DNA of 38,340 nucleotides. Source: Acidimicrobiales bacterium (GTDB lineage Bacteria > Actinomycetota > Acidimicrobiia > Acidimicrobiales > AC-14). The stretch lies in assembly GCA_025463925.1 (NCBI GenBank), contig JAODBK010000007.1, forward strand, positions 1-38,340, read 5' to 3'. Position numbers and translations under genes: made by a program. Position 1 is the first letter of the stretch. Each line of letters starts with the position of its first letter. Below the pieces are notes generated by a model, which did not search any database, had not been told where the DNA came from, and was given only the letters and a program-made list of their open reading frames with translations. Shown piece after piece: positions 7,632-38,340 of the stretch.

Positions 7632-7640
7632 AAACAACGG

Positions 7641-7748
7641 GTGGTCCTGGGCGGTCATTATGCGAACACCCCGCCGCTCATCACTGTCGAACCGATCGTC
7701 CTCTCCCCGCCGAACACTGTGCTACGCCGTGGCGACGGAAACCGGTGA
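7641..7748 (+). CDS. Candidate 35-residue peptide encoded by dispersed repeat, copy 1
   Basis: A short frame from GTG 7641 to TGA 7746-7748. It is supported only by comparison with copy 2 at 35119-35229. Over 34 shared codons, 16 of 18 base differences fall in third positions and only two residues differ (Val-Glu here, Gly-Gly in copy 2). The peptide starts VVLGGHYANTPPLIT and ends SPPNTVLRRGDGNR. It is not hydrophobic and has no signal. No good ribosome site is visible (GAAACAACGG precedes). It could be the tail of a longer lost gene. I do not recognise the peptide. Confidence 0.4.
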   Translation: MVLGGHYANTPPLITVEPIVLSPPNTVLRRGDGNR

Positions 7749-7759
7749 GTGTCGCCAGC
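7644..7759 (+). repeat. Dispersed 116-bp repeat, copy 1
   Basis: This block matches 35125-35240 in the same orientation with no gaps and about 19 differences in 116 bases. The match starts abruptly at GTCCTGGG and ends at GTGTCGCCAGC, 11 bases past the shared stop codon. It lies in the 317-base gap between the lipoprotein gene and the VOC gene. I see no other gene in that gap; 7760-7948 holds nothing I can name. Confidence 0.8.
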
Positions 7760-9346: not shown

Positions 9347-10003
9347 TCATCGACGTGTGAAGGTCAGGTGGGTGACGCCGCTCGGTGACGAAACCGCCTC
9401 GATGTCGTAGCGCTCCTCGACGCCCTCGACGCCCTCCCACAGGCGAACGCCGCGCCCGAGCAGGATCGGCACCTGCACGACGTGGAGCGTGTCGATGAGG
9501 CCGGCGGCCAGGAAATCGCGGACGATCGTCGGGCCACCGCCGATGCGAACGTCGCGGTCGCCGGCTGCCTCCCGGGCGAGGTCGAGCGCCTCCTGCGGTC
9601 GGGCGTCGACGAAGTGAAACGTCGTACCGCCCTCCATCTGGATCGACGGGCGCGGGTGGTGGGTGAGCACGAACACCGGCGTGTGGAACGGCGGGTTCGG
9701 CCCCCACCAGCCGCGCCACTCGTCGTCGGTGCCGACATCGGTCCAGGCGCCGGTCTGCGGGCCGAACTTGCCCCGGCCCATGATCTCGGCACCGATGCCG
9801 ATGCCATGGCGTTCGGCGAACGAGTGGTCGACACCAACGGTGCCACCTGACTCGTCGACCATCGAGCGCCAGAATCGGGTGGCGAACATCCACTCGTGCA
9901 GGCGCTTCCCGGCGTGACCGAACGGGGCCTCGAACGTGATGCCATCGCCGGTCCCGAACCCATCCAGGGAGATCGAGAAGTTGTGGACACGGACTTGGGA
10001 CAA
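9347..10003 (-). CDS. Dihydrofolate reductase family protein (RibD C-terminal domain-like)
   Basis: A 218-residue protein of the bacterial DHFR/RibD_C-like group. It opens with VRVHNFSISLDGFGTG, has the central IMGRGKFGPQTGAW and FVLTHHPRPSI, a nucleotide-binding stretch DVRIGGGPTIVRDFLAAGLIDTL, and ends VSSPSGVTHLTFTRR. Such proteins are NADPH-dependent reductases of unknown substrate, often found near regulators or other redox genes. The start is TTG at 10003, which is unusual but is supported by GGAGG five bases upstream. The gene lies downstream of, and in the same direction as, a PPOX stump whose frame runs on inside it. Confidence 0.88.
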   Translation of the reverse strand: MSQVRVHNFSISLDGFGTGDGITFEAPFGHAGKRLHEWMFATRFWRSMVDESGGTVGVDHSFAERHGIGIGAEIMGRGKFGPQTGAWTDVGTDDEWRGWWGPNPPFHTPVFVLTHHPRPSIQMEGGTTFHFVDARPQEALDLAREAAGDRDVRIGGGPTIVRDFLAAGLIDTLHVVQVPILLGRGVRLWEGVEGVEERYDIEAVSSPSGVTHLTFTRR

Positions 10004-34956: not shown

Positions 34957-35080
34957 CCGCGAACACCCAATCCACACATCAACGCGAGATCAGCGGCCGG
35001 CTTCATCACTCACATCAGAGAGCGGGCCGGCCATCAGCGCAAGCCTCCACGCGATGAACCCCGAGTTTGCCTCCAGGGCC

Positions 35081-35114
35081 CGCGGCCGGCAGTTACAAGC
35101 GGGGAATCTCTATG
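35081..35114 (+). repeat. 5' module of the dispersed repeat, copy 2
   Basis: CGCGGCCGGCAGTTACAAG and the following bases match 38255-38286 (exact over CGGCCGGCAGTTA, looser after). It lies just before the 116-bp module, so copy 2 carries both modules, copy 1 only the 3' one and copy 3 only the 5' one. Confidence 0.5.
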
Positions 35115-35118
35115 CGCG

Positions 35119-35229
35119 TTGGCAGTCCTGGGGGGTCATTATGCGAACACCCCACCGCTAATCACAGGCGGGCCGATCGTGCTGTCGCCGCCAAACACGG
35201 TCCTGCGACGCGGTGACGGCAACCGGTGA
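35119..35229 (+). CDS. Candidate 36-residue peptide encoded by dispersed repeat, copy 2
   Basis: The frame from TTG 35119 to TGA 35227-35229 is the counterpart of 7641-7748. It reads LAVLGGHYANTPPLIT, a Gly-Gly, then PIVLSPPNTVLRRGDGNR. The same frame is open far upstream, antisense to the kinase gene, so the true start is unknown. The coding claim rests on the third-position bias of changes between the two copies. Function unknown. Confidence 0.4.
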   Translation: MAVLGGHYANTPPLITGGPIVLSPPNTVLRRGDGNR

Positions 35230-35240
35230 GTGTCACCAGC
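35125..35240 (+). repeat. Dispersed 116-bp repeat, copy 2
   Basis: A gap-free match to 7644-7759 in the same orientation, about 84% identical by my count. It sits in the 600-base gap between the GHMP kinase and the FtsX-type gene, in the same position relative to unrelated neighbours as copy 1 (an intergenic gap after a gene end). Confidence 0.8.
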
Positions 35241-35495
35241 GCGCGTCGATCGCGGTTCGCGTCGAGCAGCCCCAGTCAGATGTGAGCGCCCGCCGATCTA
35301 TCGAAGAAGGATGGAACACTTCGCTCGCACCATCCCTTCGTGTCGATCTGGCGCTGTTGTCGCGCTCGCGCGTGGGCGCTCGGAGCATGCCGATGAAGGC
35401 CCTCGGGACTCAGTCCGGTCAGGGTGCTGGCATGAGTTCGAGGAGGCCGGCTAGCTGCCTGGGCTAGCGCAGGGGCGTCGGCCACAATCTGAGCC
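35241..35495. other. Intergenic stretch without recognisable gene
   Basis: Short frames exist on both strands, for example a leftward one with LTGLSPEGLHRHAPSAHARA. None shows a family motif, a ribosome site or convincing codon use. It may contain remains of a mobile or repeated element linked to copy 2 of the repeat. I see no hairpin terminator. Confidence 0.3.
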
Positions 35496-35582
35496 ATCAG
35501 CACGAACCGGGGGGTTCTTCGCGTAGCCAGGTACCGCTTCGGGGCGACCTTCGGCCGCCGCTGGAGCGGCTACCTCGCGCTC

Positions 35583-38045
35583 GTGCTCCTGATATCGCTC
35601 ACCGGCGGGATCGCGATGGCATCGGTCGCGGCGGCCCGGCGCACCCAATCGTCGTTCTCGGCCTACCTGAAGAGCACCAACCCGTCGGACCTCACCATCT
35701 CGGCGTTCGGGCTCGGGTCGGGACCGGGGGGAGGCCAGCAGAAGGCGTTCACGGACACGGTCGCCCACCTGCCCCACGTCCGCCACGTGGCCACATTGAT
35801 CGGCCTCGACGTGATCCCGCTGACGGCGGCGGGCACCCCCGCCAAGCACGCCAGCGACCTGATCACCGCGGGCAGCGTCGACGGCCTGTTCAGCCGGCAG
35901 GATCGCGTCACCGTGATCCGCGGCCGGGCCGCCGACCCGACCCGGACGGACGAGTTCGTCGCGACCCGGGAATCAGCGAAGCTGCTCGGCATCCGCGTCG
36001 GGCAGGTTGTCACGACCGCTTTTTACACGGACGACCAGTTGCTCCTGCCGGGCTTCGGCACAGCGGCGGTGGCGCCGAAGCTGCGGCTCGGCGTCCGGCT
36101 GGTCGGCATCATCGAGAACGCCAACGACGTCGTGCAGGACGACGTCGACCGGGTGCCGGGCCTGGTGGTGTACACGCCGGCGATCACCCGTCAGCTGCTC
36201 GCCGGCTCGACCGTCGCCACGTACAACCTGCAGCTCGATCGCGGAGGTCGCGACGCCGCGGCGGTGGAGCAGGAGTTCCTTCGCGTGCTGCCCCCCGGTT
36301 CGACGTACACCTTCCACATCACGTCGCGGCTCGAGGGCACGGTGGAGCGGGCGGTGCGGCCCGAGTCGATCGCGCTCGGCGGCTTTGGCCTGATCGCCGG
36401 GTTGGCGGCGCTGTTCATCGGCGCCCAGGCCATCATCCGGCAGGTGCGCGCCGGCGACGCCGACACGCACGCGCTGCGCGCCGTCGGCGCCGGGCCCTTG
36501 ACGACGGTCGCCGACGGGTTGGCCGGCGTCCTCGGCGCGGTCGTCCTCGGAGCGATGCTCGCCGCGGGCGTCGCGATCGCGCTGTCGCCGATCGCCCCGC
36601 TCGGCCCGGTGCGGGCAGTGTTCCCCAAGTCGGGGGTCGCCGCCGACTGGACCGTCCTCGGGCTCGGACTGCTCGTGCTGGTCGTTGTGCTCGGCGCGGC
36701 GGCCGTCGCCGTCGCCTATCGCGCCGCGCCCCACCGGGTCGCCGGGGCGCTGGCCGTCGCGCCGGAGCGTCGCTCGAACGCAGCGCGGCTCGCGGCGGCG
36801 GCAGGACTGCCGGCGCCGGGCGTCGTCGGCCTCCGCTTCGCCCTCGACCGGGGACGCGGGCCGGCGGCCGCGCCGGTTCGTTCGGCGCTGCTGGGCACCG
36901 CGCTGGCCGTCGTGATGATGGTGGCGACACTCACGTTCGGGGCCAGCCTGCACGCGCTCGTCTCGCGGCCGGCGCTGTACGGGTGGAACTGGAACTACGC
37001 CCTTACCGCCACGAACAAGGTGCCGGTGAACGCGGTCGCGCTGCTCGACCACGATCCGGCGGTGGCGGCGTGGACCGGCGCGACTTTCGCGAACGCGCAG
37101 ATCGACGGCCAGAACGTCCCGATCCTGGTGCAGAAGTCGCGGGCCCAGCCGCAGCCACCGGTCCTGTCGGGTCACGAGCTGGACGCCGACGATCAGGCGG
37201 TGGTCGGCGCGGACACCCTGAAGCGGCTGCACAAGCGGGTCGGCGACACCGTCGTCATCACCTACGGCACGCCGGAGGCGGCGCCGGTCTACGTGCCACC
37301 GACAACGCTCCGGGTCGTCGGCACCGCGACGATGCCCGCGATGGGCTTCTCGAGCTTCATCAGCGACCACCCGTCGATGGGCACCGGGGTGCTGATCTCA
37401 GTCGGCATCGAGCCGCCGGCATTTCAGCAGGCGCTGCGCAGCCCGGATCCTCTGTACGCCGACGGACCCGACATCGCGCTGGTCCGCATGCGCCGCGGCC
37501 TGACGGACGCAGCCAGTCGCGCCGACATTCGGCGCATCGCCGACGCCGCCAACGCCGCTATTGCGAAAGACCCCAACGCCGTCGCGGACAACGTCCAGGT
37601 CCTGTCGGTCCAACGGCCGGCCGAGATCGTCAACTACCGGTCGGTCGGCGCCACACCGGCGGTGCTCGCGCTGGGTCTCGCGGCGGGCGCGGTCGTCGCG
37701 CTGGCGCTCACGCTGGTGGCATCGGTCCGTCGGCGCCGGCGCGACCTCGCACTGCTGAAGACGCTCGGCTTTCGACCTCGTCAGCTGGCCGCGACGGTCG
37801 CGTGGCAGGCGTCGGTGGCCGCGGTCGTCGGCATCGCGGTCGGCGTGCCGCTCGGTATCGCGCTCGGGCGTCAGCTGTGGATCCTGTTCGCGCGCAGCAT
37901 CCACGCGGTGCCGCATCCCACGGTGCCGGTGCCATCGGTGCTGCTGGTCGCGGCGGGGACGCTCGTGCTGGCGAACCTCGTCGCCGCGCTGCCCGGTCGA
38001 AGCGCAGCACGCACTCCGGCGGCGCTGGTCATGCGAACGGTTTGA
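35583..38045 (+). CDS. FtsX-type ABC transporter permease, orphan, start unclear
   Basis: About 820 residues with the double-FtsX plan. Membrane core one: LIAGLAALFIGAQAIIRQVR then DTHALRAVGAGPLTTVADG. A central block contains LRFALDRGRGPAAAPVRSAL. Extracytoplasmic domains lie before and between. The final core is LALGLAAGAVVALALTLVAS, RRRRRDLALLKTLGFRPRQL and VGIAVGVPLGIALGRQLWIL. The frame is open upstream to 35493 and codes for a family-like N-terminus (RVARYRFGATFGRRWSGYLA), but no ATG, GTG or TTG occurs before GTG 35583. The GTG would cut into the first membrane helix. The original start may have been lost or a rare codon used (ATC 35496). No ATPase gene is adjacent, so the partner must lie elsewhere. 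Confidence 0.82.
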   Translation: MLLISLTGGIAMASVAAARRTQSSFSAYLKSTNPSDLTISAFGLGSGPGGGQQKAFTDTVAHLPHVRHVATLIGLDVIPLTAAGTPAKHASDLITAGSVDGLFSRQDRVTVIRGRAADPTRTDEFVATRESAKLLGIRVGQVVTTAFYTDDQLLLPGFGTAAVAPKLRLGVRLVGIIENANDVVQDDVDRVPGLVVYTPAITRQLLAGSTVATYNLQLDRGGRDAAAVEQEFLRVLPPGSTYTFHITSRLEGTVERAVRPESIALGGFGLIAGLAALFIGAQAIIRQVRAGDADTHALRAVGAGPLTTVADGLAGVLGAVVLGAMLAAGVAIALSPIAPLGPVRAVFPKSGVAADWTVLGLGLLVLVVVLGAAAVAVAYRAAPHRVAGALAVAPERRSNAARLAAAAGLPAPGVVGLRFALDRGRGPAAAPVRSALLGTALAVVMMVATLTFGASLHALVSRPALYGWNWNYALTATNKVPVNAVALLDHDPAVAAWTGATFANAQIDGQNVPILVQKSRAQPQPPVLSGHELDADDQAVVGADTLKRLHKRVGDTVVITYGTPEAAPVYVPPTTLRVVGTATMPAMGFSSFISDHPSMGTGVLISVGIEPPAFQQALRSPDPLYADGPDIALVRMRRGLTDAASRADIRRIADAANAAIAKDPNAVADNVQVLSVQRPAEIVNYRSVGATPAVLALGLAAGAVVALALTLVASVRRRRRDLALLKTLGFRPRQLAATVAWQASVAAVVGIAVGVPLGIALGRQLWILFARSIHAVPHPTVPVPSVLLVAAGTLVLANLVAALPGRSAARTPAALVMRTV

Positions 38046-38107
38046 TCCCCCACCACTTCCAGCACAAACGCTCGGGTCGTCTGCGTTCGAGCTTCCTGAA
38101 AGCGTGA

Positions 38108-38257
38108 CTAGTCGAGCGACCGCAATGTGCCGCTTGCGCGCACTTCGACGACATGGACGAGCTGCAGAAGAACCGCTCGGTATCGCTCGTCCACAACAGT
38201 CTCAGCCCGCCGCCTGAGAAATTCGCCTGCGGAGCGTGTGTGACGTTCGGGGTCCAC
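38108..38257 (-). CDS. Possible small protein (49 aa), unknown
   Basis: A leftward frame from GTG 38257 to TAG 38108-38110 codes for a helical, Arg/Val-rich peptide (SAGEFLRRRAETVVDERY, then VLLQLVHVVEVRASGTL). It starts inside the partial repeat beside the tRNA. There is no homology I recognise and no clear ribosome site. The 254-base gap from 38046 to 38299 holds nothing else except the repeat module. Confidence 0.22.
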   Translation of the reverse strand: MDPERHTRSAGEFLRRRAETVVDERYRAVLLQLVHVVEVRASGTLRSLD

Positions 38258-38286
38258 GGCCGGCAGTTAGATGGCGGGAACTCTTG
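38255..38286 (+). repeat. 5' module of the dispersed repeat, partial copy 3
   Basis: CACGGCCGGCAGTTAGATG and the bases after it match 35081-35114. The similarity fades 14 bases before the tRNA 3' end. The 3' 116-bp module seen in copies 1 and 2 is absent here. Confidence 0.45.
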
Positions 38287-38299
38287 TCTCCGCGGTTTG

Positions 38300-38340
38300 C
38301 AGCCCCAACGGGATTCGAACCCGTGCCGCCACCTTGAGAG
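38300..38340 (-). tRNA. tRNA-Glu (CTC), 3' part, cut by window end
   Basis: Read leftward from 38340: anticodon loop CT-CTC-AA, 3' anticodon stem GGTGG, a four-base variable loop CGGC, T stem/loop ACGGG-TTCGAAT-CCCGT with five perfect pairs, acceptor strand TGGGGCT, and discriminator G at 38300. The four-base variable loop and the CTC anticodon fit tRNA-Glu. CCA is not encoded (CAAA follows). The 5' half lies beyond 38340. Confidence 0.85.

Follow-up and report, generated by a model that had tools for sequence, protein, structure and literature searches.

A conserved intergenic peptide in Acidimicrobiales as the probable detached C-terminus of a large serine integrase

Attachment sites within integrase and other phage genes

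In Dehalococcoides, the gene of the serine integrase DsiB overlaps attL and the position of its stop codon was described as "unclear" (McMurdie et al. 2011, PMC3146451). The CcrB-like enzyme is encoded at the edge of the genomic island and its gene reads through attL into ssrA, with a stop only beyond the island; the target is the 3' end of the tmRNA gene and islands occur in tandem, as in the elements considered below. A detached "requisite 3' gene fragment" was suggested and it was speculated that full function could be obtained from the circle or from a neighbour's fragment, but the C-terminal parts of DsiB proteins are divergent and the 3' fragment itself was not identified (PMC3146451).

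Three other systems share parts of this arrangement. The SCC/SCCmec and ECC elements are moved into the 3' end of a gene by large serine recombinases (CcrAB/CcrC), and also form composite arrays and include elements that lack a recombinase (PMC6222049). In archaeal "suicidal" SSV-type integrases the attP is located inside the integrase gene, which is split upon integration into a tRNA gene (PMC8371274); the same review describes self-disrupting recombinases as exclusive to archaea. In mycobacteriophages with integration-dependent immunity, attP is also found within a gene and integration changes the C-terminus of the encoded protein (PMC9635641, PMC8092301).

The window considered here, i.e., the entire 38,340-nucleotide stretch of an Acidimicrobiales genome that was analysed, contains two copies of a short coding-like repeat, each of which very probably represents the severed 3' terminus of a gene for a large serine integrase of the CcrB/DsiB-like type, cut at an attP inside that gene. 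The integrases linked to these tails overlap attL and have no stop before the core, as does DsiB. In contrast to the DsiB islands, the 3' fragment is identified here, is conserved and under selection, and is found at the far end of each element, where it can be joined in frame; the targets include many tRNA genes besides that of tmRNA, and the host belongs to another phylum. Unlike in SCC, attP is placed inside the recombinase gene and the target is a tRNA or tmRNA gene rather than rlmH, while the best NCBIfam match of the integrase of one complete element (G126), which is CcrB, scores 152.9 bits and is thus far under the 900-bit equivalog cut-off. The SSV-type enzymes are tyrosine recombinases (PF16795; the domains seen here are those of serine recombinases) that are cut into inactive halves, whereas the bacterial serine enzyme would lose only a C-terminal tail and keep its domains. 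In the mycobacteriophages it is a repressor that is altered, the integrase is a tyrosine enzyme and an ssrA-like tag is often involved, whereas here the integrase itself would be altered and the tail is not ssrA-like.

The repeat in the window and its relatives

The two copies (7641-7759 and 35122-35240) form a gapless alignment of 116-119 nt with 84% identity. Over the 34 codons of 7644-7745 they differ at 18 positions, 16 of them third and two of them second codon positions (V to G and E to G); over 35 codons, the NG86 method gives 17 synonymous and 3 non-synonymous changes (pN/pS 0.08). Similarity ends abruptly at the left edge, extends 11 nt beyond the stop, and neither copy is preceded by a normal start codon. 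An earlier note on this DNA had reported the gapless match, the third-position bias, the missing start and the 11-nt extension, all of which were reproduced. The range it had marked, 7641-7748 on the forward strand, coincides exactly with the detached tail of copy a, from the crossover codon through the stop, i.e., very probably the last 35 codons and TGA of a serine-integrase gene, a reading based on in-frame relatives, on the pN/pS value against tail b and on in-frame joins to integrases in other genomes.

A protein search of the same genome, as proposed in the earlier note, recovered two further, more divergent in-frame copies (C31:47637-47744 and C55:60005-60112), and about 30 in-frame relatives were found in sampled genomes of Acidimicrobiales and other Actinomycetota. 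They are rare (16/397 genomes of the order, 4/396 of the phylum) and mostly from Acidimicrobiales, with a single genome (G730) from elsewhere in the phylum; named contigs that carry tails belong to Acidimicrobiaceae or Actinomycetota metagenome-assembled genomes. The frame is kept, the stop is reached and internal stops are absent in 25 of the 29 collected tails, a count that leans towards intact copies because most were found with a peptide query. The four exceptions are an internal stop in G076, the lack of a stop at that position in G315b and fragments in G169b and G041; partial or frame-broken copies are also present in integrase-less cassettes of G016 and G023. A search with DNA only recovered C23b, G010 and G018, none of which has lost the frame. 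The earlier note had named frame-breaking indels, or changes spread over all three codon positions, in further copies as evidence against its reading; for the most part this is not what the further copies show. For tail pairs with pN below 0.25, pN/pS is 0.08-0.65. Tail lengths vary in whole codons, variation in the ~70 nt past the palindromic arm described below is mainly at third positions, and nearly all tails end in R-x-G-x-G-D/N-R (mostly ...G-D-G-D/N-R) or a close variant, followed by the stop, while the sequence upstream of the tail is unrelated between copies. Judged from these comparisons, the tail peptide is under purifying selection, consistent with the earlier proposal that an encoded peptide, read rightward, is selected.

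The first ~30 nt of every tail copy carry the motif GGTGTCATNRYRCGAACACC, the inverted partner of which is found elsewhere. In the window, arm pattern search gave this arm B as GCGGTCATTATGCGAACACC at 7651..7670 (+) in tail a, for which the mirror arm in complete elements is further evidence, and as GGGGTCATTATGCGAACACC at 35132..35151 (+) in tail b. This is far above chance: the arm core matches the window twice, against zero matches in 100 shuffles, and a reversed-pattern control gave zero matches in 397 genomes. In several genomes, a pattern search placed the inverted partner immediately downstream of tRNA-Val and tRNA-Glu genes, and this position next to tRNA genes led to the reading as a mobile element; transposon terminal repeats were considered and dropped, since the arms abut tRNA genes. 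The first ~30 nt of the tail are doubly constrained, i.e., also as DNA, forming half of a palindromic attP. The earlier statement that the peptide and not an RNA structure is selected can be kept for the peptide, but needs this qualification for the DNA of the first ~30 nt.

Copy a begins at a crossover core of tRNA-Val type (GGTGG, 7640..7644, +), which is also the core at which the ends of the G126 and G143 elements are joined. A glyoxalase/VOC gene (PF00903, 7949..8425, −) beside the tail is a possible cassette cargo. No right-hand half-site or boundary for copy a was found in the window, and there is no integrase beside either tail: the joined integrase proteins described below have no match in the window other than these tails. 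Copy a is a solitary Val-type tail from which the integrase is apparently gone. A gene with a RibD_C domain is located nearby (9347-10003), and a cassette in G169 (L132) carries a seemingly similar RibD/DHFR-like gene, as judged from the translated sequence.

Tail b (35 codons and TGA, 35122..35229, +) starts in a core of tRNA-Glu type, GCAG (35122-35125), as in the G010 element. The same core, followed by the 3' part of a tRNA-Glu(CTC) gene, is found at 38299..38340 (−), where the gene, the putative target of element b, is cut by the contig end; these last 42 bases are identical (42/42) to the tRNA-Glu sequence next to the element of G010, and a target of this type is what the core of tail b predicts. 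Between the two is an FtsX-like permease gene (PF02687, 35583..38045, +), the cargo. Because of the core, the tRNA gene at the window end and the permease between them, copy b is one boundary of a ~3.2-kb cassette. At its right end there is no recognisable arm, but instead a second copy of an attB-left-like stretch: the sequence left of tail b (35076..35111, +) recurs at 38250..38284 (+) beside the tRNA-Glu core, with a local alignment score of 35 (27 is the upper limit for 95% of random pairs), and is probably a duplicated left half of attB. The permease has a homologue with 69% DNA identity (blastn) in the C55 element of the same genome at tRNA-Lys. FtsX/MacB-like permease cargo is thus seen in two integrase-less elements, L031 (G000:C55:55686-60112, tRNA-Lys) and window 35122-38298 (tRNA-Glu). 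The tRNA-Glu end at the core reads TTTGCAG in the window and GTGGCAG in G010, and therefore the last acceptor bases may differ in this truncated gene.

Complete elements and the reconstructed gene

Three complete elements share one plan, i.e., those of G126 (JAKAWR010000006, L077; 5.5 kb, tRNA-Val), G010 (17.9 kb, tRNA-Glu) and G143 (5.5 kb, tRNA-Val). The integrase gene is located at the tRNA end and the tail at the far end, on a common strand, and the integrase frame crosses the mirror half-site and the core without a stop and enters the antisense of the tRNA 3' end. When the ends are joined at the common core (GTGG or GCAG), one in-frame ORF is obtained that is composed of integrase, attP and tail: KGVRAMTPSV-VLGCHCTNTP...GNGDR, RGVRTMKPVA-VPGGHYANTP...GDGDR and RGFRAMTPTV-VLRCHKTKPF...GFGDR, respectively, each followed by the stop. 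Each of the three joins would be in frame by chance with a probability of 1/3, and the argument has further supports. For the G023 integrase, 4/4 tails tested on the contig likewise continue its frame when joined.

The joined ends form a dyad of ~54 bp within the 3' portion of the integrase gene, and an attP of a serine integrase is expected to be a dyad of this size. The half-sites covary: where other elements carry GTTCG in the integrase half and CGAAC in the tail half, G143 carries GGTTTCG and CGAAACC, respectively, and the integrase arm of G023 fits best to the tails on its own contig (15/16). The two half-sites thus behave as a single site. The possible start codon of the tail is itself the recombination core and varies with the target (GTG, GCA).

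The encoded proteins contain Resolvase, Recombinase and zinc-ribbon domains in that order, all before attP (G126, G023), and the N-terminal catalytic serine motif Y-x-R-x-S is invariant (Y6, R8, S10) in seven integrases. At nearly all integrase loci the reading continues stop-free into an antisense tRNA or tmRNA gene; in further genomes, integrases of the same family read in like manner into tRNA-Arg, tRNA-Ala, tRNA-Val and tmRNA genes, and relatives in IMG/VR into tRNA-Asn or tRNA-Arg, with short non-tRNA ends in some of these contigs. The frame of the G089 integrase is broken, and among relatives outside the clade some 3' extensions are short or of another kind. In the genome of the window a single integrase of the family was detected (L120, G000:C97:951-2399), which belongs to another subfamily and reads into tRNA-Arg(CCT); a blind inverted-repeat search for the far-end arm of such C97-like subfamilies gave only short chance matches.

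No intact, uninterrupted gene of integrase and tail was found in the phages, plasmids, IMG/VR and genome samples searched, including two further samples. At a non-tRNA locus (G016:C74), the remnant of an integrase C-terminus is continued, without interruption and in frame, by an attP-type junction and then a tail, and G016:C1 has an attP-type junction and tail with no recognisable integrase upstream. These decayed junctions are the nearest natural examples of the uninterrupted gene, and apart from them the joined gene is a reconstruction.

Integron-like arrays of small-gene cassettes were observed in G016 (L013, C27:70000-82000; L238, C1), G023 (L122, C10:86000-104000) and G169 (L132, C94), with APH kinase, AAA kinase, DUF4160/DUF2442, methyltransferase, DUF3800 and PIN/FitA-like antitoxin genes as cargo. 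The cassettes are set apart by arm-centre-arm palindromes, and a motif resembling CGAARAYGCWGGTCARSG recurs in the ~45-bp centre, perhaps as a carried left half of attB. The arms are ~65 bp apart in these arrays, by which reasoning an Xer/dif module was set aside as a poor fit to a dif site. In a neighbouring region (L032, G016:C27:62000-72000) the antisense strand of the tmRNA gene is entered by the frame of a broken integrase, and the G016:C27 array thus appears to begin at ssrA. A ~630-bp cassette in the genome of the window (L016, G000:C31:47637-48271) holds one GYD-domain gene between a tail and a mirror arm beside tRNA-Val(TAC), with an attB-left-like stretch between the arm and the tRNA core.

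Function of the tail and alternative explanations

As the sequences show, the element is located at the 3' terminus of a tRNA gene or of the tmRNA gene, and the integrated integrase gene passes through the core into the antisense of that target. Its last ~27-45 codons and stop are found on the common strand at the element's other end. In the proposed mechanism, the element would be inserted by attP x attB recombination. With such an insertion, the intact C-terminus could be produced only from the excised circle or from a neighbour's tail across an attP-type junction, and selection on the tail would presumably act in these states. Integration would swap the tail for a C-terminus read from the tRNA gene, and this swap might, as the least certain step, alter the activity or stability of the integrase and help to lock the element in. 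An effect of the tail on direction, stability or partner binding is conceivable. Because every recognised domain is encoded ahead of attP, an active enzyme may still be produced from the integrated gene. A stronger version can be entertained tentatively, namely that the tail is a switch which exists only in the free element, such that insertion itself turns the enzyme, giving a lock on direction with no separate factor, and that cassette tails can restore a neighbour's integrase.

Alternatively, the tail could belong to the integrase and have no specific role, i.e., the gene overlaps attP and the extension is tolerated. The placement of all three catalytic and DNA-binding domains before attP fits this explanation, as does the existence of integrases with quite different C-terminal extensions, but purifying selection on the tail and the R-x-G-D-G-D/N-R end conserved across families count against it, and it is considered less likely than not, though only slightly less probable than a switch role. 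The strong codon-level conservation and conserved C-terminus, together with GTG or TTG codons near the left edge of many copies, would also be compatible with an independent small protein of ~36 residues near the element ends that adjoins attP by chance, in line with the hidden small-protein family or unannotated peptide preferred in the earlier note. However, the candidate start is the target-dependent core (GTG, GCA), sequence upstream is unrelated between copies, the integrase frame always runs on across the core into that of the tail, and tails erode in integrase-less cassettes. A standalone micro-ORF was therefore rejected; since the tail has no start of its own, has its first codon on the core and is preceded by the integrase across attP, it is more aptly described as a C-terminal segment of the integrase than as a separate family, and a chance neighbour is very improbable. 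The other possibility raised in the earlier note, that a mobile or modular gene ends here, is borne out by the evidence.

An integron-like attC site or a structured RNA or DNA element, with the coding appearance as a by-product, was suggested by the palindromic arms, the hairpin-forming right edge and the small-gene arrays of G016 and G023, which resemble cassettes. Yet a search of the repeat against Rfam matched no known RNA family, an IntI integrase above the TIGR02249 cut-off was found in 0/60 genomes, and the arms run GTT...AAC, which is the reverse of the attC order. With the third-position variation over the ~70 nt past the arm and the whole-codon length differences added, attC was rejected and this explanation is the least credible of those considered.

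If each tail is the severed end of an integrase gene, a detached fragment of the kind postulated for DsiB is now seen repeatedly, in frame and under purifying selection, in bacterial serine integrases; the literature was covered in part and an earlier description is possible. Annotated integrases in such islands would then have wrong C-termini, and orphan conserved "intergenic peptides" beside tRNA genes become candidates for severed integrase ends. If the tail controls the enzyme, it would represent a new and simple route to directional integration, with bearing on the fixation of genomic islands and on integrase-based genome engineering.
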